Shown: positions 19,168 to 30,267 of the stretch, piece by piece
Numbering within the stretch: position 1 is the first letter of the stretch
Layout: the number at the start of each line of letters is the position of its first letter
NCBI RefSeq assembly: GCF_900103365.1
Contig: NZ_LT629703.1
Span: 1,860,001-1,924,000, forward strand
Length of the DNA: 64,000 bases
From: Afipia sp. GAS231
GTDB lineage: Bacteria > Pseudomonadota > Alphaproteobacteria > Rhizobiales > Xanthobacteraceae
Reading direction: 5' to 3'
Program-made: the position numbers and the translations under genes
The notes under the pieces: generated by a model
Database searches by the model: none
The model's input: only the letters and a program-made list of their open reading frames with translations
What the model was told of the DNA's origin: nothing

Positions 19168-20454
19168 CTAAATCATCCCGAGCAACCGCGGCAGCCACAG
19201 CGATATTTCCGGCACATAGGTGATCAACCCGAGGAAGACCAGCATCGCGCACAGCCACGGCAGCACCGCGATGGTGATCTCGCTGATCCCCATTTTGGCG
19301 ATACTGCTGGCGATGTAGAGATTGAGTCCGACCGGGGGATGGCACAGACCGACCTCGGTGTTGACGATCATCAGGACGCCGAGATGAACCGGGTGGATGC
19401 CGAGCTTGGTCGCCAGCGGAAACAGGATCGGCGCCATGATCAGCAGGATCGACGACGGATCCATCACGTTGCCCGCCAGCAGCAGGATGATGTTGACGAC
19501 CAGCAGGAACATCCAGATCGAGAAATTCTTGTCGATGATCCAGGCCGCCATCTCCTGCGGGATCTGCTCCGATGTCATCAGGAACGAGAACAGCACCGCG
19601 TTGGTGATGATGTAGAGCAGCATCGAGCTCATGCTCGCGGCCTGCAGCAGCACCCTCGGCACTTCCGTGAGCTTCAGCTCCTTGTAGACGAACACCGTGA
19701 TGAAGAAGGCATACACCGCCGCTACAGCCGCGGCTTCCGTCGGCGTGAAGATGCCGCCATAGATGCCGCCGAGCACGATGCCGATCAGCAGCAGGCCCCA
19801 GAGGCTTTCGCGGAACGCAGTCCATTGCTGGCCGAGCGTGGCCTTCGGCATCTTCGGATAGCCGTTGCGCAGCGCGACAACGAAGGTCACGGCGGCGAGC
19901 ATCAGCGCGAGAATGATGCCGGGCACGATGCCGGCCATGAACAGCGCGCCGATCGAGGTGTTGGTGGAGACTCCGTACAGCACCAGGATGATCGAGGGCG
20001 GCACCAGGATGCCAAGCGCGCCCGAGGTCGCGATCACGCCGACGCCGAACCGGCGCGGGTAGCCGTACTGCACCATGGCCGGCATCATGATCGAGCCGAT
20101 CGCGACCACCGTCGCCACGCTCGACCCCGAGATCGCAGCGAACATCGCGCAGGCCGCGACGCCGGCAAGACCGAGCCCGCCCGGCAGATGCCCGACCAGC
20201 GAGGTCGTGAACGCGATCATCCGTCGCGCCACCCCGCCGCGGGTCAGGAAGGTACCGGCCAGGATGAAGAACGGGATCGCCATGATGCCGAAGTTGTCCA
20301 GCCCTGAGAACAATTTCAGGCCGACGCTTTCGATCGGCACCTGCGTCATCGTGAACAGGAAGGTCAGCACGGTGAGGCCGAGCGAAATCGAGATCGGCAT
20401 GCCCGTCAGCATCAGCGCAAACAGCAGTCCGAAGATAATGGCGGCGCTCATCAC
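19168..20454 (-). CDS. dctM: TRAP transporter large permease (DctM type)
   Basis: Inner-membrane ion-coupled permease of 428 residues with about 12 spans. Family marks are GMPISISLGL, AIPFFILAGTFLTRGGVARR, AAISGSSVATVVAIGSIMMP, PPSIILVLYG, FTPTEAAAVAAVYAF and MDPSSILLIMAPILFPLA. It overlaps dctQ by four bases (ATGA). Together with dctQ and dctP it forms a complete TRAP importer for an organic acid; the substrate is not evident. Length and spans are normal for the family. Confidence 0.96.
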   Translation of the reverse strand: MMSAAIIFGLLFALMLTGMPISISLGLTVLTFLFTMTQVPIESVGLKLFSGLDNFGIMAIPFFILAGTFLTRGGVARRMIAFTTSLVGHLPGGLGLAGVAACAMFAAISGSSVATVVAIGSIMMPAMVQYGYPRRFGVGVIATSGALGILVPPSIILVLYGVSTNTSIGALFMAGIVPGIILALMLAAVTFVVALRNGYPKMPKATLGQQWTAFRESLWGLLLIGIVLGGIYGGIFTPTEAAAVAAVYAFFITVFVYKELKLTEVPRVLLQAASMSSMLLYIITNAVLFSFLMTSEQIPQEMAAWIIDKNFSIWMFLLVVNIILLLAGNVMDPSSILLIMAPILFPLATKLGIHPVHLGVLMIVNTEVGLCHPPVGLNLYIASSIAKMGISEITIAVLPWLCAMLVFLGLITYVPEISLWLPRLLGMI

Positions 20455-21020
20455 GCTTCTCCAAGCGCGATCGGCGCGGTCTTGCTGGTTTCGACGCCAT
20501 CAACATGGGTGGCGTCATGATGCGGCAGTTGATCGGTCCGCCAGTAGGTCCACACCACCTGAAGGAAGCGGAAGCACATCAGATACGAACCCAGCGGAAT
20601 GCAGGCGTACACGATCCAGCTCGGTATCTCGAGGTCGGGCGATGTCTGGTCGGTCGACATCAATTCGATGACGAATTTGGCGCCCATGGTGCCGACGATC
20701 GCCGTGAACAGCGCGCCGCCCATCAGGCCGAACAGGATGGTGACCTTGCGCCAGCGATCATTGAGCCGGTTGATCAGCACGTCGACGCCGACATGGATGC
20801 CGGTGCGCACGCCGTAGGCGGCGCCGAACTTGGCCATCCAGATGAACATGTAGATGCACAGCTCCTGGGTCCAGGCGATGTGGATCTGGATCAGGTACGG
20901 ATAGAGAAACGGAATGCCGGTACCAAAGCGGTGCACGACGGCAACGAAGATCAGCACGGTCGCGGCGCCCATCAGCGTGCTGATCAGGATTTCCTCGAGC
21001 CGATCAAGGATACGAAGCAT
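20451..21020 (-). CDS. dctQ: TRAP transporter small permease (DctQ type)
   Basis: 189-residue membrane protein with four spans (about 14-36, 50-68, 90-112 and 132-155). It has the usual WTQELCIYMFIWMAKFGAAYGVRTGIHVGVDVL segment of DctQ. It is coupled to dctM by an ATGA overlap. Between it and dctP lies a 263-bp gap containing a long palindrome, which may serve to lower its expression relative to the binding protein. Confidence 0.94.
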   Translation of the reverse strand: MLRILDRLEEILISTLMGAATVLIFVAVVHRFGTGIPFLYPYLIQIHIAWTQELCIYMFIWMAKFGAAYGVRTGIHVGVDVLINRLNDRWRKVTILFGLMGGALFTAIVGTMGAKFVIELMSTDQTSPDLEIPSWIVYACIPLGSYLMCFRFLQVVWTYWRTDQLPHHDATHVDGVETSKTAPIALGEA

Positions 21021-21045
21021 CTTCTATGTTTCCCCAGCCATCCAA

Positions 21046-21133
21046 CCGTCATGCCCGGGCTTGTCCCGGGCATCCACGCCTTGCGTTGCTGCAAGGAGGA
21101 CGTGGATGGCCGGGACAAGCCCGGCCATGACGG
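21046..21133. repeat. Long dispersed palindrome between dctP and dctQ
   Basis: The left arm (21046-21078, starting CCGTCATGCCCGGGC) and right arm (21101-21133, ending GCCCGGCCATGACGG) are inverted 33-mers matching at 31 of 33 positions. The 22-bp loop can itself pair (CCTTGC / GCAAGG). I recognise this as a common dispersed element of Bradyrhizobium-type genomes, comparable to REP elements. In an operon mRNA it would form a very stable hairpin. Confidence 0.85.
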
Positions 21134-21239
21134 AAAATCATTCATTCTCGGCCGCATGACTCGCTGCGGCACCCCCACCCATAGCCGATGCTCCGCATCG
21201 GCGTTATCACATCAAGAACGGCGGCCATAGGCCGCCTGT

Positions 21240-21265
21240 GCCTCCCCCGCAAGCGGGAGAGGGAG
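21240..21265. repeat. Partial copy of the CCCGCAAGCGGGAGAGGG element
   Basis: CCTCCCCCGCAAGCGGGAGAGGGAG matches the right arm of the larger element at 59339-59490. It lies just after the dctP stop, on the 3-prime side of the dctP transcript, and is itself a short hairpin (CCCGC-AA-GCGGG). Confidence 0.65.
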
Positions 21266-21283
21266 TATCACCAGTCGTCGCGT

Positions 21284-22285
21284 TTAGTGGCTCGCCTGCC
21301 CGGTCTCTTTCAGGAACTCGTCGATCAGCGGCTGGCCGACGCGGGTCGCGACATCCTTGTAGACCGGCTCCACCGCCTTGCGCATCGCGGCGTCCTGCTC
21401 CGGCGTCAGCGTGACGATCTCGGTCTTGCCGCTCTTTTTGATCAGCTCGAGCGCGTCCTCGTTTTCCTTCGCCGACTGGCTGTTGCCGAAAGCGGTGGCT
21501 TCCTTCATCGCCTTGTCGAGCTCGGCGCGGATGTCGGCCGGCAGGCCGTCCCAGAACTTCTTGTTCACGACCACGACGTAGCCGATGTAGCCGTGGTTGG
21601 TGACGGTGGCGAACTTCTGCACCTCGTGCATTTTCTGGGTGTAGATGTTGGACCAGGTGTTCTCCTGGCCGTCGACCACGCCGGTCTGCAGCGCCTGATA
21701 GACTTCGCCGAACGCCATCACCTGCGGGATTGAACCGAGCGCGCGGAACTGCGCCTCCAGCACCTTCGACGACTGGATGCGGAACTTGACACCCTTGTAG
21801 TCGGCGGGGGCGACGAGCTTCTTGTTGGCGCTCATTTCCTTGAAGCCGTTGTCCCAGTAAGCGAGGCCGGTCATGCCCTTGGAATCGAGCAGCTTGAGCA
21901 GCCGGGCGCCGAGCGGGCCGTCGGTGACCTTGCGCAGCGTGGTCAGGTCGGGAAGGATGTAGGGCAGATCGAACACCTCGAATTCCTTGACCCCGATCGG
22001 GCCGAATTTCGAGTTCGACGGCGCCAGCATCTGCACCGCGCCGAGCTGCAGCGCTTCCAGCTCTTCCTTGTCCTTGTAGAGTGTCGAGTTCGGGTAGACT
22101 TCGACCTTGACCTTGCCGGCAGTGTATTTCTCGGCCAGTTCCTTGAACTTGTCGGCCGCCTTGCCCTTCGGTGTGTCGGAAGCCACCACGTGGCTGAACT
22201 TGATGACGATCGGCGCCTGCGCGGCGGCCGGACCGGCCAGAGCCAAAGCCGCGACCGATGCCGCGACCAAAATCAATCCACGCAT
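21284..22285 (-). CDS. dctP: TRAP transporter substrate-binding protein (DctP type)
   Basis: Periplasmic receptor of 333 residues with a signal peptide (1-22, GPAAAQ). Typical DctP features are IVIKFSHVVASDTPKGKAADKFKELAEKY, the ligand-carboxylate Arg in GVKFRIQSSKV, and MAFGEVYQALQTGVVDGQENTWSNIYTQKMHEVQKF. GGGAGG supports ATG 22285. It is first in the dctP-dctQ-dctM operon. The conserved Arg predicts a carboxylated ligand of C4-dicarboxylate or keto-acid type; nothing else narrows it. Confidence 0.96.
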   Translation of the reverse strand: MRGLILVAASVAALALAGPAAAQAPIVIKFSHVVASDTPKGKAADKFKELAEKYTAGKVKVEVYPNSTLYKDKEELEALQLGAVQMLAPSNSKFGPIGVKEFEVFDLPYILPDLTTLRKVTDGPLGARLLKLLDSKGMTGLAYWDNGFKEMSANKKLVAPADYKGVKFRIQSSKVLEAQFRALGSIPQVMAFGEVYQALQTGVVDGQENTWSNIYTQKMHEVQKFATVTNHGYIGYVVVVNKKFWDGLPADIRAELDKAMKEATAFGNSQSAKENEDALELIKKSGKTEIVTLTPEQDAAMRKAVEPVYKDVATRVGQPLIDEFLKETGQASH

Positions 22286-22614
22286 GTAACCTCCCGCGCT
22301 ATTTTTGCGGGACAGGGGTAGTACCCGGCCCCGAACTTTGTATGCCGGCCGCACCAATACAGAGAAGCGGACCGGATTGCCATTGCCCCTTTAGCAGGGG
22401 CTGATGTTTCGTTTTTGCTGCATCGCAAAATGCGACATTCTGTCCATACAGCAAACGTCTGCTGCGATCGGCCACCGCATATGCAGGGCGCTGTGCCCGG
22501 GTTCCGCCGCGGCGTCCAGTAGAGGTTGGCTTACGCTGGATTCGCGATAGCAGAACGGTGGATGTTTATCTCGTGGTCAGGGGAGGAATTTGGGGCGCCT
22601 ACTACCTCTCTCCA

Positions 22615-23453: not shown

Positions 23454-24344
23454 ATGGCAATTGATTATCTCCAGGTCGGACAACGCCTGCGCGCGCACCG
23501 CATGGGCCTCGGGCTAACTCCCGAGCAATTGGCCGAGCAACTCGATATCTCGCGCGCAGCGCTCTACAATTATGAGAAGGGCGAGGGACCGGTAAAGCTC
23601 GAGATCCTGGAGCGGATAGCTGATTTTTTGAAGACGTCGCTACCTTCCCTTCTCGGCGTCGGCACCGAGTATTTTTCAAGCGCCACGGCCTATTTCGAAC
23701 GGCTCCGGCAAATCGAAGCGAGCTCCGAGCGCGTTCTCGTCTATTACGAGCCCGTCACCTTCCTGCTGACCTCCGACGAATATCCGCAGATCCTGCGAAA
23801 CATGCTGCTTGAAGGGCTTCCGGAAAAGCTGCCCAACCGACGCCGCGCCCAGGCTGAAATAGAGAGCCTGATCGGAATTTTGAGCGAGCGCCGGGCGACC
23901 ATATCCAAGGGCGGACCGAGTTTCGCCGGCATTGTCGGCGCCACCCAGGTGCGGCGCCTGCTGCGAACCGGCCTGATCGGGACCTACGACCTGCCAAAGG
24001 CGGAGCGGGACAAACGACGGCTGGCTGCGCGGCGAGAGGTCGAGCGGATCGCCAACATTATGGAGAACGAGCCGGTCGGCATCCAGATCGGGATTGTCGA
24101 CGACACCCTTCCCAATCAGACTTTCGAGATCTGCCGGTCGCGGGACGGCACCGTTTTGGTCGCGGTCAGTCCGTTTCGGTTGGGCGAACTGCCGAATGTG
24201 CGGTTGGGTGTCGCTACCGTGACCGCAGCGCCCGAGGCCGTCGATCTCTACCAGCGGCTCGCCGGTCAAATGTGGGAGCGGGCCGCGAAGGGCGTCAGCG
24301 GAGCGGCGCTGCTGCGCAAATGCCTGAAAGAGCCTCAGATCTGA
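23454..24344 (+). CDS. XRE-family transcriptional regulator of the pyrimidine-type operon
   Basis: 296 residues. An N-terminal Cro/CI-type helix-turn-helix (about 6-62; VGQRLRAHRMGLGLTPEQLAEQLDISRAALYNYEKGEG) is followed by a roughly 220-residue domain that I cannot name (ERVLVYYEPVTFLLTSDEYPQ, NEPVGIQIGIVDDTLPNQTFEICRSRDG), possibly ligand-sensing. ATG 23454 gives a standard regulator start; the open frame further upstream runs through repeat sequence. It lies ahead of, and in the same direction as, the MFS-PyrK-PyrD-amidohydrolase-PyrE operon, with a 439-bp gap, and probably controls it. Confidence 0.85.
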   Translation: MAIDYLQVGQRLRAHRMGLGLTPEQLAEQLDISRAALYNYEKGEGPVKLEILERIADFLKTSLPSLLGVGTEYFSSATAYFERLRQIEASSERVLVYYEPVTFLLTSDEYPQILRNMLLEGLPEKLPNRRRAQAEIESLIGILSERRATISKGGPSFAGIVGATQVRRLLRTGLIGTYDLPKAERDKRRLAARREVERIANIMENEPVGIQIGIVDDTLPNQTFEICRSRDGTVLVAVSPFRLGELPNVRLGVATVTAAPEAVDLYQRLAGQMWERAAKGVSGAALLRKCLKEPQI

Positions 24345-24783
24345 GCCGGGCCTTCGTCCGTCAGAGGAGCTCCTGCCCGGCCCTCGAGATCGGAATCTCG
24401 CCGCTACCTGCGTCAGACACTTGACAGGGCTTGCCGAAGAAATCATCGATTCAACAGGGCGTTAGCCGCTTGTGGGCGCAGCCCGCATGTCTCAACCAAT
24501 GACGGGACGGCCCTTTGTCCGGCGATCCGATCGCCGGCCTAATTTCTAAGCTGTCCATGTTTATAGAATAATCTTGATTTTTATACGACGGCGATGTGAA
24601 CTGTCATATCGGGATCGGGACGATCGAGCCTCGATAGTGCCAACCCATGTTCCGCGCTTCGCTGCGCGCTCCATGGCGGGCGGAAGATCGCCTCGTCAAC
24701 GTGCGCCGTGCGAATTTGAAGATTCATGGCTGAGACCGCAGCAAGCGGTCGCAGCCGCAACGCATTTTCGACGGGAGATTCGC
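24345..24783. promoter_or_regulatory. Promoter region of the pyrimidine-type catabolic operon
   Basis: A 439-bp gap without a gene. TGATTTTTATACG at 24575-24587 closely matches TCATTTTTATGCG at 23421-23433, which lies 21 bp before the regulator start; 11 of 13 positions agree. Both sit in AT-rich islands, so a shared operator or promoter element for the XRE regulator is plausible. GGGAG at 24774 is the ribosome site of the MFS gene. Confidence 0.35.
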
Positions 24784-26034
24784 GTGAGCCACTTTCAAGA
24801 CGTCGCAGGCAGCATCACCTCAGATGAATTCTCGCCGGCCAAGGAGACCGAGGCGCGCAAGGCGCTGTTGGGATCGGCACTCGGTTATGCGATGGATGGT
24901 TTCGACCTTCTCATCCTCGGCTTCATGCTGCGGATCATATCCGCCGACCTCGGATTTGGCCCCGCGCAGGGAGCCTCGCTCGTCACAGCGACGCTGATCG
25001 GTGCGGTGATCGGTGGCGTCGTCTTCGGAATGCTGTCGGACCGCATTGGCAGGGTCCGGGTGCTGACCTGGACGATCGTGCTGTTCGCCGTGTTCACAGG
25101 CATGTGCGCGCTTGCGCAGAGTTATTGGGACCTGCTGATCTATCGCACGATTGCCGGCATCGGGCTCGGTGGCGAGTTCGGTATAGGCATGGCGCTGGTC
25201 GCCGAAGCGTGGCCTGCCTCGAAACGTGCGCGGGTCTCGTCCTATGTCGGACTCGGTTGGCAACTTGGCGTGCTTACGGCAGCGATCGTCACGCCGTTGC
25301 TGCTTCCGGTCATCGGCTGGCGCGGCATGTTTGCGATCGGAATCCTGCCGGCGATCGCCGCCTACTTCATCCGGCATTCGCTGCATGAGCCGGACGTCTT
25401 CGTCGAGCGGACCGCCAAAGCGCCGACCGCAAGCCTTCCGATCAATCTGCTCGTCAAGGATGCCGAGACCACCAAGATCAGCATCGGCATGGTCATTCTC
25501 TGTTCGGTGCAGAATTTTGGCTATTACGGCGTCATGATCTGGCTGCCGAACTATCTCTCTTCGCGCTTTGGCTTCGGTCTTGCGCAGTCGGCCACATGGA
25601 CAGCGGTCACCATCGCAGGCATGGCGGTCGGTATCTTCCTGTTCGGTCACGCCGCCGATCGGATCGGCCGCCGGCCCGCCTTCATCACCTACATGCTTGG
25701 CGCAGCGATCATGGTGGTGGTCTATTCCAAGCTCACCGACCCGACCGCGCTGCTGTTCGGTGGCGCCGTCATGGGATTGTTCGTCAACGGCATGCTCGGC
25801 GGATACGGCGCGCTGATGAGCGAATTGTATCCGACAACGGCGCGCGCCACGGCGCAGAACGTGCTGTTCAACATCGGCCGGGCTGTTGGCGGCCTTGGAC
25901 CTGTGGTCGTCAGCGCCGTCGCGGCATCGTGGGGATTCGAAACCGCCATCGCCCTGCTGGCGCTGCTCTACATCGCCGACATGCTGGCGTTCTGGCTGCT
26001 CATTCCCGACCGGCGCGGCGCCGAACTGACCTGA
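24784..26034 (+). CDS. MFS transporter (aromatic-acid:H+ symporter type) of the pyrimidine-type operon
   Basis: 416 residues, 12 spans. LGYAMDGFDLLILGFML is the usual span 1 with the key Asp; GMLSDRIGRVRVL and GHAADRIGRRPAF are the two MFS loop motifs; RTIAGIGLGGEFGIGMALVAE is span 4. I chose GTG 24784 because GGGAGATTC lies just before it; the open frame continues upstream without a ribosome site. AAHS members import small carboxylates with a proton. In this operon orotate, dihydroorotate or an N-carbamoyl amino acid would be sensible cargo, by inference. Confidence 0.9.
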   Translation: MSHFQDVAGSITSDEFSPAKETEARKALLGSALGYAMDGFDLLILGFMLRIISADLGFGPAQGASLVTATLIGAVIGGVVFGMLSDRIGRVRVLTWTIVLFAVFTGMCALAQSYWDLLIYRTIAGIGLGGEFGIGMALVAEAWPASKRARVSSYVGLGWQLGVLTAAIVTPLLLPVIGWRGMFAIGILPAIAAYFIRHSLHEPDVFVERTAKAPTASLPINLLVKDAETTKISIGMVILCSVQNFGYYGVMIWLPNYLSSRFGFGLAQSATWTAVTIAGMAVGIFLFGHAADRIGRRPAFITYMLGAAIMVVVYSKLTDPTALLFGGAVMGLFVNGMLGGYGALMSELYPTTARATAQNVLFNIGRAVGGLGPVVVSAVAASWGFETAIALLALLYIADMLAFWLLIPDRRGAELT

Positions 26035-26069
26035 GCGCGTTCCCCGCCCGATTTCATCGCGAGGCCCTG

Positions 26070-26939
26070 ATGACAGTCCAGCCCCCTGTTGAAGCCACGA
26101 CCGTGGAATCTGGCGGCGCCGTGCACGGCGCCGCACCCTGGAGCCCTACCGTGGTCGGCGAAGTTGCCGAGGTGGTCGCGAATGATGCCGTCAACCTCGA
26201 ATATCGCCATCTCGTCGTGCGATGCAGTCCGGTCGCGGCAAGCGCCGTCCCGGGACAGTTCTTCCAGTTGCTGTGCCCGCACACCGATGGCGCTCAGCCC
26301 TTCCTGCGGCGGCCGATGAGCCTGTACGGCGCCGACCCGATCCGTCGCGAGGTCGAGTTTCTCTACAAGATCGCCGGCGCCGGAACCCGCGGGCTGGCGA
26401 CGCTGCACCCCGGCGACCCCATCGACATCATGGGGCCGCTGGGCATCGGCTTCACCATCGACCCGTCGCTGCGACACATCGTGGCGATCGGGCGGGGTGC
26501 CGGGCTGGCGACGCTCGCTCCGCTTGCCAAAGCCGCGAAGGCCAATGGCACCAAGGTGACGGCGATCTTCAGCGCCCGCCGTCCCGAACTGCTGGTCTCG
26601 GTCGACCTGTTCAAGCGCCACGGCGCCGAGGTGATCGCTGTCACCGACAGCGACAGCACCAGCGGCCCGTCGAACATCGAACGCATCCTGCGTGGCCTGA
26701 TCGCTGAAAAACGCTCCGATGCATTCTACACCTGTGGCTCCAGTCGCCTGTTGCGCGTGCAGCAGCGGCTGGCGCGCGAATTCAATATCCCGGGCCAGGT
26801 GGCGATGGAGCAGCAGATGGCTTGCGGCATCGGTCTTTGTTTCTGCTGTGTGCGCGATTTCAATGTCGGCGGCGAGATCGTGCATCGCAGGGTCTGCTGG
26901 GATGGACCCGTGTTCGATATGATGGAGGCGCTTCCATGA
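26070..26939 (+). CDS. pyrK: Dihydroorotate dehydrogenase class 1B, electron-transfer subunit (PyrK-like)
   Basis: 289 residues. FAD-binding barrel with RPMSLYG (81-87), NAD-binding lobe (HIVAIGRGAGLATLAPLA, 136-153) and a C-terminal 2Fe-2S site with C252, C257, C260 and C276 (MACGIGLCFCCVRD...RRVC). These are the marks of PyrK, which passes electrons between PyrD and NAD(H). The N-terminal 25 residues are extra. It overlaps pyrD by four bases. Class 1B enzymes are unusual in alphaproteobacteria, whose biosynthetic PyrD is class 2, so a catabolic role is likely. Confidence 0.9.
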   Translation: MTVQPPVEATTVESGGAVHGAAPWSPTVVGEVAEVVANDAVNLEYRHLVVRCSPVAASAVPGQFFQLLCPHTDGAQPFLRRPMSLYGADPIRREVEFLYKIAGAGTRGLATLHPGDPIDIMGPLGIGFTIDPSLRHIVAIGRGAGLATLAPLAKAAKANGTKVTAIFSARRPELLVSVDLFKRHGAEVIAVTDSDSTSGPSNIERILRGLIAEKRSDAFYTCGSSRLLRVQQRLAREFNIPGQVAMEQQMACGIGLCFCCVRDFNVGGEIVHRRVCWDGPVFDMMEALP

Positions 26940-27883
26940 TCGATCTTTCGGTGCGTATTGGCAGCCTGACGCTGGCCAATCCCGTCATGCCTGCCTCCGG
27001 TACGTTTGCCGAAAGCCTGATCCAGGCGATCGACTTCAATCGGCTCGGCGCATTCGTCACCAAGACGATCACGCGCGAGCTCCGGACCGGCAACCCGCTG
27101 CCCCGCGTCGTCGAGCGCGCCGGCGGACTAATCAACTCCATCGGGATTCCCTCGAAGGGCGTGCCCTACTTCATCAACGAAACGTTGCCGCACTATGCGC
27201 CCTACAAGCCGCCGCTGGTCGTCAGCATCTCGGCGCCGACCGCCGAGGACTTCGCGCAGCTCGCCACCGAGCTGACGCGTGCCGGCGTGGCCGCGATCGA
27301 GGCCAATATCTCCTGCCCCAACATCGAGGAAGACGGCAAAGCCTTCGCGATGCGGGCGAGTTCCACCGAGACCGTCGTGCGCCATTTGCGCGCGGCGACG
27401 CCACTGCCGCTGTGGGTCAAGCTGACACCGAACACCGGTGATCTGCCCGACGTTGCACGCGCCGCGGAAGCCGCCGGCGCAGATGCCGTCGTGGTCGCCA
27501 ACACGATCCTGGCAATGGCCATCGACCTCACGACGTTCAAGCCATGCCTCGGCAATGTCATGGGTGGCCTGTCCGGTCCGGCCATCAAGCCGATCGTGCT
27601 GCGACAGGTCTACCAGTGCGCCCGCACCGTGAATATCCCGGTGATCGGATGCGGCGGCATTTCGACGACCGAGGACGCGATCGAATATATGCTGGCCGGC
27701 GCCACCGCGGTCCAGGTCGGGACGGCAACCTTCGTCCAGCCGGCAGCAATGACGACGATCATCGACGGGCTGGCCAGGTTCTGCGAGCGGCGGGATACTT
27801 CGCGCGTGGCCGACCTGATCGGCGCCGTTCTGAACGAAGAAACCGATGAACCCGAACTGGCGTGGCTAGCGCCGACCCCATGA
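26936..27883 (+). CDS. pyrD: Dihydroorotate dehydrogenase class 1B, catalytic subunit (PyrD-like)
   Basis: 315-residue FMN barrel interconverting dihydroorotate and orotate. The catalytic base is a Cys (C127 in EANISCPNIEE), diagnostic of class 1; class 2 enzymes use Ser. FMN-site segments are NPVMPASGTF, GGLSGPAIKPIVL, PVIGCGGISTTEDAIEYMLAGA and VQVGTATF. Coupled to pyrK upstream and to the amidohydrolase downstream by ATGA overlaps. With NAD as partner the pair can run toward dihydroorotate, as in orotate-fermenting clostridia; direction here is inferred. A dihydropyrimidine dehydrogenase-like activity is another possibility. Confidence 0.92.
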   Translation: MIDLSVRIGSLTLANPVMPASGTFAESLIQAIDFNRLGAFVTKTITRELRTGNPLPRVVERAGGLINSIGIPSKGVPYFINETLPHYAPYKPPLVVSISAPTAEDFAQLATELTRAGVAAIEANISCPNIEEDGKAFAMRASSTETVVRHLRAATPLPLWVKLTPNTGDLPDVARAAEAAGADAVVVANTILAMAIDLTTFKPCLGNVMGGLSGPAIKPIVLRQVYQCARTVNIPVIGCGGISTTEDAIEYMLAGATAVQVGTATFVQPAAMTTIIDGLARFCERRDTSRVADLIGAVLNEETDEPELAWLAPTP

Positions 27884-29175
27884 CAGCGGCAAACCAGCGG
27901 AGCCTCGTTCCCGAGACGAACATCGAGCGTGACCAGGCGTTATGCGAGAGCCTCTTTACGGCGCTGCGCGACGCCACCAGCGACGGCATCGGCATCACCC
28001 GCGAAAGTTTCGGGGCCGGCGAATCGCTGGCGCTCGACATTGTCGAAAGTGCCGCGAGGGAGGCTGGCCTTGAAACCGAGCGCGACGCCGGTGCCAATCT
28101 CGTGGTGACGCTTCGGGGGACTGATGCGGAGTTGCCGTTCGTGGCCTGCGGATCGCATCTCGATTCGGTTCCGCAAGGTGGCAACTTCGATGGCGGCGCC
28201 GGCGTGATCGCAGGGCTCGCAATCCTGGCCGGCCTGAAGCGGGATAACTTCGTCCCCCGACGAACGCTCAAGCTGTTCGGCCTTCGCGGCGAGGAAAGCG
28301 CCTGGTTCGGCAAGGCCTATATGGGATCGAGCGCCTTGTTCGGCCGCCTGACGCCTGACGATCTCGCTTCGCCACATGCCGTTTCCGGCCGCCCGCTCAG
28401 CGACTGCATGGGTGACGTCGGAGCTGATATCGACCGCATTGCGCGGGGAGAGCCGCTGCTGGACAGCCGTCGCATCGCCGCCTGGATCGAACTGCACATC
28501 GAACAAGGCCCGGTCCTCGTGGCACGCGACCTGCCGATCGGCATTGTCACCGGCATTCGCGGCAATGTGAGGCATCGAACCGTCGAATGCGTTGGCGAGG
28601 CCGGCCACTCCGGCGCGGTGCCGCGCTGGCTGAGACGCGACGCTGTGTTCGCAGTGGCCGAACTGATCACGCATCTCGACCGGCACTGGCGCACGCTGCT
28701 GGAACGCGGCCGCGACCTCGTCATCACATCCGGGGTCATGGGAACCGACAGTACGGAACACGCGATCGCGCGCATTCCCGGCAGCGTCAAGTTCAGTTTC
28801 GAGGCGCGCAGCCAGAGTCAGGAGACGCTGGAGGCGTTTTACGACCTTTTCATATCGGAATGTGCCAGCATCGGCGACGACCGCGGGGTCGAGTTCAAAC
28901 TCGACCGTCGCTTGCAATCGTCGCCCGCCACCATGGATCCCGGTTGGGTCGATCGGTTGCGCACCGCGGCCCGGGAGCTCGGGTTGCCCGATGAAACGAT
29001 CCCCAGCGGCGCCGGGCACGATGCAGCCGTCTTCGCCAATGCCGGGATTCCGAGCGCCATGATATTTGTCCGCAACGAAAACGGCTCCCATAATCCATTT
29101 GAGGCCATGAAAATCGACGACTTCATGAAGGGCGTCGCGGTGATGCGAAAGGTTTTGGCGGAGGCAATCACATGA
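27880..29175 (+). CDS. M20-family N-carbamoyl/allantoate-type amidohydrolase
   Basis: 431 residues. Binuclear-metal signature CGSHLDSVPQGGNFDGGAGV, then FGLRGEESAWFGKAYMGSSA, the substrate-side HIEQGPVL, SGAGHDAAVFA and FVRNENGSHNPFEAM. This is the AllC/HyuC group (allantoate amidohydrolase, beta-ureidopropionase, N-carbamoyl-L-amino-acid hydrolase). ATG 27880 overlaps the pyrD stop; an earlier in-frame ATG at 27862 is less likely. In this operon a ureidosuccinase-type activity, releasing aspartate, ammonia and carbon dioxide from N-carbamoylaspartate, would complete orotate breakdown, but the substrate cannot be read from the sequence. Confidence 0.9.
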   Translation: MTAANQRSLVPETNIERDQALCESLFTALRDATSDGIGITRESFGAGESLALDIVESAAREAGLETERDAGANLVVTLRGTDAELPFVACGSHLDSVPQGGNFDGGAGVIAGLAILAGLKRDNFVPRRTLKLFGLRGEESAWFGKAYMGSSALFGRLTPDDLASPHAVSGRPLSDCMGDVGADIDRIARGEPLLDSRRIAAWIELHIEQGPVLVARDLPIGIVTGIRGNVRHRTVECVGEAGHSGAVPRWLRRDAVFAVAELITHLDRHWRTLLERGRDLVITSGVMGTDSTEHAIARIPGSVKFSFEARSQSQETLEAFYDLFISECASIGDDRGVEFKLDRRLQSSPATMDPGWVDRLRTAARELGLPDETIPSGAGHDAAVFANAGIPSAMIFVRNENGSHNPFEAMKIDDFMKGVAVMRKVLAEAIT

Positions 29176-29203
29176 CGCCCCGGTCCATCGGAGAGGTCAG
29201 GCC

Positions 29204-29887
29204 ATGACGGTGGAAGACCTCGGCGCGGCAACCGCGCGGCTTCTGATCGAGGCTGGCGCCATCCAGATCAGTCAGGATCGGCCTTACGTGCTGGCCGCGG
29301 GATGGGCCAGTCCGGTCTATGTCGATTGCCGGCTGTTGATCGGCGAACCGCGGCTTCGCAGAGAGGCCGTGCGGCTGGCGGCACTGGCCGGCCGCCGATT
29401 GCGGGAAACCGTTGGCTTCGATGCGGTGGCCGGCGCCGAAACGGCGGGAATTCCGTTTGCGTCCTGGCTGGCGGATGCGCTGGACGTTCCGCTCCGCTAC
29501 GTTCGCAAACGACCATTGGGAATCGGCCATAACGCGCAGGTGGAAGGCGGGCCGGTCGACGGGCTGCGCGTGCTCCTCGTCGACGATCTCACCACCGACG
29601 CAACCAGCAAGGTTTCTTTCGCAACCGGATTGCGTCAGGCCGGCGCTGATGTGACTGACGTGCTGACCATTTTCTACCACTCGGCGTTTCCCGGCGCGAG
29701 CGAACGTCTCGCACAGACGGGGCTAACATTGCATCCGCTCGCGACGTGGGACGATATCATGCGGATCGACCTCAGCGGCCGGCTCAATGCCGGCGACCGG
29801 GCGCATATCCTGGATTTTCTCGACGATCCGGTCGCCTGGTCGACCAGGCACGGAGGACGTTCGGCCCTGCCTCCCCGCAAGCGCTGA
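29204..29887 (+). CDS. pyrE: Orotate phosphoribosyltransferase-like protein
   Basis: 227 residues with the PRT fold: GAIQISQDRPYVLAAGWASPVYVDCR at the N-terminus, AGAETAGIPFASWLA, and the PRPP loop VLLVDDLTTDATSK. The loop is unusual: PyrE proteins normally have a small Gly-rich turn (for example TTDGGS or TTGGS) where this one has TTDATS. The change could alter activity or substrate. It lies 28 bp after the amidohydrolase with the same direction and is probably the last gene of the operon, converting orotate to OMP for salvage. A separate biosynthetic pyrE is expected elsewhere. Confidence 0.85.
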   Translation: MTVEDLGAATARLLIEAGAIQISQDRPYVLAAGWASPVYVDCRLLIGEPRLRREAVRLAALAGRRLRETVGFDAVAGAETAGIPFASWLADALDVPLRYVRKRPLGIGHNAQVEGGPVDGLRVLLVDDLTTDATSKVSFATGLRQAGADVTDVLTIFYHSAFPGASERLAQTGLTLHPLATWDDIMRIDLSGRLNAGDRAHILDFLDDPVAWSTRHGGRSALPPRKR

Positions 29888-29961: not shown

Positions 29962-30267
29962 TCAGAACAGCTCCGCCGCGGCAATTCTGTTCAGAACTGT
30001 CAGCTGTTGCTCTGTGGAACCGTGAAGGGAGCCTTCACCTTCTTCCACCAGACGAAAGAAAACGTCATAGGCTTTTTGCGCGACGTCCACTGGCAAGGGT
30101 TCTTCGTCGAACACCGTGACATAGTGGCCAGCCAGGCCAGCTAACAATCTGTAAAGAGCTCTATGGGAGGCATCGGCGGCAAAAAGCTCGAGGGCCTTTT
30201 CCTGGAACGTCTTGTACGTTCGAAGGCCGGGATGCTGGGTTGCAAGCCAATCAACTAGTTCGGTCAA
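29962..30267 (-). CDS. Small helical protein, function unknown
   Basis: 101 residues, starting with a TTG codon at 30267 that has AAGGAG about ten bases upstream; no ATG is available near the start. The protein is amphipathic-helical and acidic (TYKTFQEKALELFAADASHRALYRLLAGLAGHYVTVFDEEPL). No signal peptide and no recognised domain. It is monocistronic and convergent with pyrE. The composition looks protein-like, but the non-ATG start keeps confidence moderate. Confidence 0.55.
   Translation of the reverse strand: MTELVDWLATQHPGLRTYKTFQEKALELFAADASHRALYRLLAGLAGHYVTVFDEEPLPVDVAQKAYDVFFRLVEEGEGSLHGSTEQQLTVLNRIAAAELF

Follow-up and report, generated by a model that had tools for sequence, protein, structure and literature searches.

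A 64,000-nucleotide stretch of the closed 7.58-Mb genome of Afipia sp. GAS231 (the window; C1:1860001–1924000) carries a putative operon for the catabolism of orotate. Its six genes, all on the plus strand, encode in order an XRE-family regulator, an MFS transporter, PyrK, PyrD, an M20 carbamoylase (AH) and PyrE (Table 1). ATGA overlaps join pyrK to pyrD (26936–26939) and pyrD to the AH gene (27880–27883), and a gap of 28 bases separates AH from pyrE. The genes, their order and these couplings are as described in an initial annotation made from the letters alone, and its outer coordinates (23454–29887) were exact; the conserved unit probably extends further, to the convergent gene c7. For the MFS gene, a GTG start at 24784 was favoured over a TTG at 24574 because the latter sits inside a block that is conserved upstream of the gene in the nearest relatives.

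Table 1. Features of the putative orotate-catabolic locus, with positions in the window.
Feature	Position	Strand	Remarks
XRE-family regulator	23454..24344	+	PF13560 49.5 bits; helix-turn-helix at N-terminus
Candidate operator/promoter element, imperfect inverted repeat	24553..24588		5' of MFS gene
MFS transporter, proposed orotate or dihydroorotate importer, GTG start	24784..26034	+	MFS_1 163.8 bits
PyrK-like electron transfer subunit, altered nucleotide-binding loop	26070..26939	+	PF10418 40.8 bits
PyrD, dihydroorotate dehydrogenase class 1B catalytic subunit	26936..27883	+	NF005574 above cut-off
M20 carbamoylase (AH), proposed N-carbamoyl-L-aspartate amidohydrolase (ureidosuccinase)	27880..29175	+	TIGR01879 above cut-off
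PyrE-like protein, with Leu105 where orotate phosphoribosyltransferase has its essential loop lysine	29204..29887	+	NF001729 238.1 bits, cut-off 245
c7, small conserved all-helical protein, convergent with pyrE	29962..30267	-	recurs in relatives

The initial annotation had staked a catabolic reading on the presence of another pyrD and pyrE in the genome, and both were found outside the operon. A class 2 quinone-dependent PyrD is encoded at C1:4331555 (NF003645 529.1 bits, cut-off 366), PyrB (aspartate carbamoyltransferase) and a class I dihydroorotase lie side by side at C1:567–569 kb, and a canonical PyrE is encoded at C1:3107239 (TIGR00336 137.2 bits, cut-off 106.8); the operon copies are therefore surplus to biosynthesis. 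PyrK is rare: among 149 genomes of relatives, 7 have it at E ≤ 1e-10 (two of these weakly), and it occurs in 11 of 385 Alphaproteobacteria, representing 8 of 276 genera, at E ≤ 1e-30; Afipia sp. GAS231 itself is counted in both surveys.

The operon PyrD scores above the cut-offs of the class 1 models (345.9 bits against 269 for NF005574 and 297.4 against 270 for TIGR01037), and its nearest solved relative is Lactococcus PyrDB (1ep1). Residues K43, N67, N124, C127, N129, K162 and N189, aligned with 1ep1, are invariant in all 35 operon members aligned and presumably form the active site, including the cysteine base in NxSCPN. In PyrK, numbered with the residue at 26067 as 1, the four Fe–S cysteines of the 2Fe–2S domain (C253, C258, C261 and C277) are present in 35 of 35. 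Its nucleotide loop (residues 142–150; 26490–26516) reads GRGAGLATL, compared with GGGIGVPPL in Lactococcus PyrK. Across the set the loop is GRG(A/V)GLATL, with Arg143 in all 35 and also in all nine sequences of a wider alignment that includes Roseivivax, an alteration that may bear on the use of NADH versus NADPH.

The initial annotation of AH as an 'AllC/HyuC amidohydrolase' stands as regards the hydantoinase/carbamoylase family (TIGR01879 279.4 bits, cut-off 204), 'amidohydrolase' being a loose word for a protein with the M20 peptidase fold. A structural model (predicted local distance difference test score 89.9) matched L-carbamoylase, ureidoglycolate hydrolase and allantoate amidohydrolase, and H93, D104, E139, H206 and H404, which we take to be the metal ligands, are invariant in the 35 members. 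AH scored below the cut-offs of NF006771, a subfamily that bears the name allantoate amidohydrolase (385.2 bits against 399), of AllC (TIGR03176, 207.6 against 597.75) and of the N-carbamyl-L-glutamate hydrolase ErtE (283.2 against 520). Arg298 is invariant in the 35 operon members and in nine of nine sequences of a wider alignment of AH; the position is V, V and I in three paralogues from the same genome and V, V and S in 3n5f, 1z2l and 4pxe (5tp4 is gapped). The preceding position is A or S in all 35 members, S in the third paralogue (L099), and Asn in the other two and in 3n5f, 1z2l and 4pxe, an Asn with a presumed role in carboxylate binding. An extra arginine near the substrate would fit a dicarboxylic compound such as N-carbamoyl-aspartate, and AH is a candidate ureidosuccinase subfamily with Arg298 as its sequence hallmark.

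With PyrK as the sole query, 34 loci were found in the genomes of named species; their contents were read by tblastn to at most 7.5 kb from PyrK. PyrD and AH adjoin PyrK in all 34, and since the loci were fetched by PyrK alone, this grouping is more than chance. PyrE was found in 32 loci, XRE and MFS genes in 26 each, c7 in 23, a class II dihydroorotase in 19 and aspartase in 6; in two Devosia loci there is also a pyrF, at about 8 kb and hence beyond the span of these counts. The two of these aspartases run on NF008909 pass (637 and 722 bits, cut-off 510), and the window's genome encodes an aspartase outside the operon (725.7 bits). A fumarase/aspartase-family match above cut-off, with one TGA reported inside it, was also seen outside the window (L090, G000:C1:1962502–1963890).

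The window's operon contains no dihydroorotase gene, and the initial annotation had placed this activity outside the window. Indeed, the genome encodes a class II dihydroorotase (L057; C1:2457100–2458116; TIGR00856 410.1 bits, cut-off 292.95) about 567 kb from the operon. In the 19 loci with such an enzyme, its gene directly follows that of AH, and the two run on NCBIfam (L023 and L054) pass the same model with 418.1 and 410.2 bits. In a tree, L057 falls into one group (support 100/98) with the operon-borne enzymes of L023 and L024, its nearest kin, and with the copy found in G019, a PyrK-less genome of the same genus. Eight of the 15 genomes with no dihydroorotase in the cluster encode a class II enzyme elsewhere, above the cut-off; seven of these outside copies belong to the main operon group in the tree (22 rows), and the eighth (L080) has a long branch of unresolved placement. 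Among 60 relatives, a class II dihydroorotase above the cut-off was found in seven, comprising all three PyrK carriers (G000, G032 and G108) versus 4 of 57 non-carriers.

Searches of plasmids by tblastn returned 75 records for PyrK (E ≤ 1e-30) and 90 for AH (E ≤ 1e-60), 53 of them from Klebsiella in each case. Ten plasmid regions were opened and read by their annotation, of which that of Cupriavidus (L110) carries none. In Klebsiella (L107 and L108; 6251–13488), a divergent MFS gene is followed by pyrK, pyrD, the carbamoylase gene, class II pyrC, XRE and c7, and then lacYZ; the pyrK–pyrC block is at least 99% identical across all 53 records, and the L107 dihydroorotase passes TIGR00856 (411.3 bits, cut-off 292.95). 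Milk or mastitis milk is named as the source in 9 of the 53 records, a figure that has no background rate for comparison. Megablast did not find the block in 5,426 complete E. coli genomes, no more sensitive search having been made. Variovorax (L109) has the MFS, pyrK, pyrD, carbamoylase, pyrC and XRE genes followed by those of a PyrE-like protein and c7. In Pseudomonas putida (L105; 9923–14735), the MFS, pyrK, pyrD and carbamoylase genes are followed by one for a class I dihydroorotase, and c7 comes next, ahead of a malic-enzyme-like gene and a gene for a chemoreceptor. This dihydroorotase belongs to another subfamily (NF006688 701 bits, cut-off 535) with 29% identity to L057 over 160 residues. 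That an enzyme of the other class occupies the same slot argues that the activity belongs to the operon, and is the best single argument for it. No pyrE is annotated in the Klebsiella (L107 and L108) or P. putida regions.

Other plasmid clusters differ in composition. TRAP transporter genes replace MFS in Nitratireductor (L104) and Pacificitalea (L112), where the stretch shown includes pyrE but no dihydroorotase; in Roseomonas (L103), MFS and pyrE occur with a LysR regulator, again with no dihydroorotase; and Agrobacterium pAt1 (L106) has pyrK, pyrD and the carbamoylase gene only. Roseivivax (L111; 6953–8699) is an exception, in which a pyrK–pyrD pair of the same broad subfamily occurs without this carbamoylase and perhaps represents a different system. 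The Roseivivax pair adjoins genes annotated as CO dehydrogenase subunit G, SagB/ThcOx dehydrogenase and Glu/Leu/Phe/Val dehydrogenase.

The operon PyrE misses its curated cut-offs, both for NF001729 (Table 1) and for TIGR00336 (80.6 bits against 106.8). Residue 105 (29516–29518) is Leu, as in 26 of 26 members of its clade, versus Lys in 12 of 12 standard PyrE proteins; the loop motif of the clade is typically RKRPLG, by a reading of which the column was equated with Lys103 of E. coli orotate phosphoribosyltransferase (OPRTase). According to a passage of PMC10087573, activity falls by 96.2% when Lys103 is acetylated, and earlier substitution had found the residue essential. The initial annotation had assigned the salvage of part of the orotate to PyrE, which the missing lysine renders doubtful. 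The lysine is kept in the operon PyrE of seven loci (L048–L051 and L053–L055), and five loci (L030, L032, L036, L039 and L041) carry a standard PyrE as well, close to the divergent one. In plasmid copies the site, read by pattern and not by alignment, is L in Roseomonas, K in Nitratireductor, Q in Pacificitalea and V in Variovorax, which makes PyrE a variable component of these clusters.

Among NCBIfam models, the transporter scored best with TIGR00895, for aromatic acid/H+ symporters, at 319.5 bits against a cut-off of 418.55. The window's MFS protein is 60–78% identical to its plasmid counterparts (four of four compared) and its regulator 41–51% identical to theirs (five of five). For the C-terminal part of this regulator, Pfam and NCBIfam gave no family at 0.001. 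A 30-bp motif found 5' of the MFS gene reached 29.8 bits over 27 sequences, versus 13.9–14.2 in three base-shuffled sets, the former being the best of 12 runs and inflated by the relatedness of the sequences, the latter the best of two shorter runs each. Several sites are clear inverted repeats and the window copy an imperfect one, whereas five or more of the 27 (L042, L047, L050, L052 and L053) look like non-matches; L023 and L024 have almost the same motif within flanking DNA that differs. We regard 24553–24588 as at most a candidate operator. The c7 protein has about 100 residues and is all-helical (model score 93.8 on the scale used for AH); searched with its window copy, neither NCBIfam (at 1e-5) nor Pfam (at 0.1) gave a family. 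The protein and the XRE regulator recur together in Alpha-, Beta- and Gammaproteobacteria, the c7 profile matches five of six plasmid clusters tested (27–58 bits), and c7 is missing from all eight loci without an XRE gene and from three with one. As its distribution follows that of the XRE gene, c7 may be regulatory. A DctPQM TRAP transporter of the C4-dicarboxylate type (19168–22357, minus strand) adjoins the operon and was judged to lie outside it.

We propose that the operon very probably serves the inducible use of external orotate (or dihydroorotate) as a source of nitrogen and carbon, through its catabolism to aspartate. The MFS protein would import orotate or dihydroorotate; PyrD–PyrK would use NAD(P)H to reduce orotate to dihydroorotate; opening of the ring to give N-carbamoyl-L-aspartate would fall to a class II dihydroorotase, operon-encoded in many relatives and distant here; and AH would convert the N-carbamoyl-L-aspartate to aspartate, CO2 and NH3, with aspartase able to hand the carbon on as fumarate and the XRE protein regulating the operon. 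Candidate genes for every step are present in the host genome. The route from orotate to aspartate had been suggested by the initial annotation, and the surplus genes, the dihydroorotase of relatives, the aspartase in 6 of 34 loci and the contiguous plasmid blocks of Klebsiella, Variovorax and P. putida support it, with PyrE salvage the part that is doubtful.

Several observations weigh against this proposal. Gene content does not separate orotate, dihydroorotate and N-carbamoyl-aspartate as the imported compound, nor does it set the direction of PyrDK; substrate, direction, transport and regulation are what we infer. AH passes no specific NCBIfam model, the best being the general Zn-hydrolase subfamily NF009527 (430.3 bits, cut-off 461), and we therefore only infer its specificity for N-carbamoyl-aspartate. 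PyrK lies below every PyrK equivalog cut-off (at best 125.5 bits versus 314) and has no canonical GGGxG loop. The 34 loci are close relatives selected by PyrK, not independent draws, with PyrK present by construction. Seven of the 15 genomes without a dihydroorotase in the cluster show no class II enzyme in the assembly searched, and so must use another. In the tree, the class II enzyme of the PyrK carrier G108 groups with those of three non-carriers, apart from all operon copies, and L063 (G019), inside the operon clade, comes from a genome without this PyrK. The class II dihydroorotase of Bosea (L082; 2659–3690) lies outside the operon, divergent to a standard PyrE, and may therefore be biosynthetic there.

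Other readings of the same genes were weighed against orotate catabolism. The operon could instead serve pyrimidine salvage, with imported dihydroorotate or N-carbamoyl-aspartate oxidized to orotate by PyrDK, converted to orotidine monophosphate by PyrE, and the carbamoylase a side activity. PyrE in 32 of 34 loci, lysine-bearing in seven, and the two Devosia loci with pyrF in the neighbourhood are in keeping with this. We nonetheless consider it very unlikely, as AH, present in all 34 loci, would drain N-carbamoyl-aspartate, PyrE is absent from two loci and from the annotation of the Klebsiella and P. putida regions, the window's PyrE is without its essential lysine, and the aspartase in six loci points to breakdown. 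Borrowed pyrimidine-type enzymes might also degrade another ureido or ring compound, whether allantoin-type, a hydantoin or another substituted pyrimidine. AH and the MFS protein do fall under all specific-model cut-offs, the second-best model for AH is one named allantoate amidohydrolase, and the C-terminal part of the regulator has no family match. However, the dihydroorotase directly after AH in 19 of 34 loci (two tested pass the equivalog model), the class I enzyme in the same slot in P. putida, the invariant PyrD active-site residues and the recurrence of PyrE leave this reading highly improbable.

An NAD-linked PyrDK could, finally, be a backup for the quinone-linked PyrD in an alternative, anaerobic pyrimidine biosynthesis, class 1B enzymes being biosynthetic in many Gram-positive bacteria. 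This is scarcely credible here: it leaves AH in 34 of 34 loci, the transporter and aspartase unexplained, and the distribution among Alphaproteobacteria (11 of 385) is sporadic. Beyond the catabolic proposal itself, we suggest, tentatively and with considerable doubt, that a mobile orotate-utilization module (a core of pyrK, pyrD, carbamoylase and dihydroorotase with MFS, XRE and c7) has spread through Alphaproteobacteria to plasmids of Variovorax, Pseudomonas and Klebsiella, there beside lac and in some milk isolates, and that the main-clade PyrE, where present, has lost OPRTase catalysis and become an orotate- or phosphoribosyl pyrophosphate-sensing partner of the regulator.

The proposed pathway resembles known systems in part. 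Clostridium (Zymobacterium) oroticum ferments orotate through dihydroorotate and N-carbamoyl-aspartate to aspartate, biochemistry known since the 1950s; this orotate fermentation was reportedly described by Lieberman and Kornberg, and we are not aware of a published gene cluster for the pathway. A passage of PMC10395836 gives the C. oroticum dihydroorotate dehydrogenase as class 1B. Reaction series and dehydrogenase class are as proposed here, although C. oroticum is a strict anaerobe. Reductive uracil catabolism (PreT–PreA/dihydropyrimidine dehydrogenase, dihydropyrimidinase and beta-ureidopropionase) likewise combines reduction, ring opening and decarbamoylation, and AH shares the M20 carbamoylase family with the N-carbamoyl-beta-alanine amidohydrolase 8c46, but the operon PyrD is far under the PreA cut-off (144.1 bits versus 335), the ring opener would be a dihydroorotase and the product aspartate. 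Orotate uptake and salvage by oroP of Lactococcus plasmids or DctA of enteric bacteria feeds uridine monophosphate through PyrE and PyrF and involves no carbamoylase; orotate import is common to these systems and the proposal, whereas the transporters differ. The biosynthetic pyrK–pyrD of Gram-positive bacteria also encodes a heteromeric class 1B enzyme of catalytic and electron transfer subunits; unlike it, the operon includes a carbamoylase (and in relatives a dihydroorotase) and an altered PyrK loop, in a host with a class 2 PyrD.

Text searches of open-access papers found no description of such an operon, and the operon, its transporter, regulator and c7, the altered PyrE and PyrK and the plasmid spread are, as far as we are aware, new. 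The operon would give genes to a pathway known as biochemistry, and would correct annotation, because plasmid records and NCBI models say pyrimidine biosynthesis and gene context says the opposite direction. It supplies a candidate ureidosuccinase subfamily and a candidate orotate importer, along with two puzzling components that recur in such clusters, c7 and a PyrE in which the essential lysine is missing. Orotate is abundant in milk, and the plasmid copies beside lac suggest an ecological role for milk orotate.

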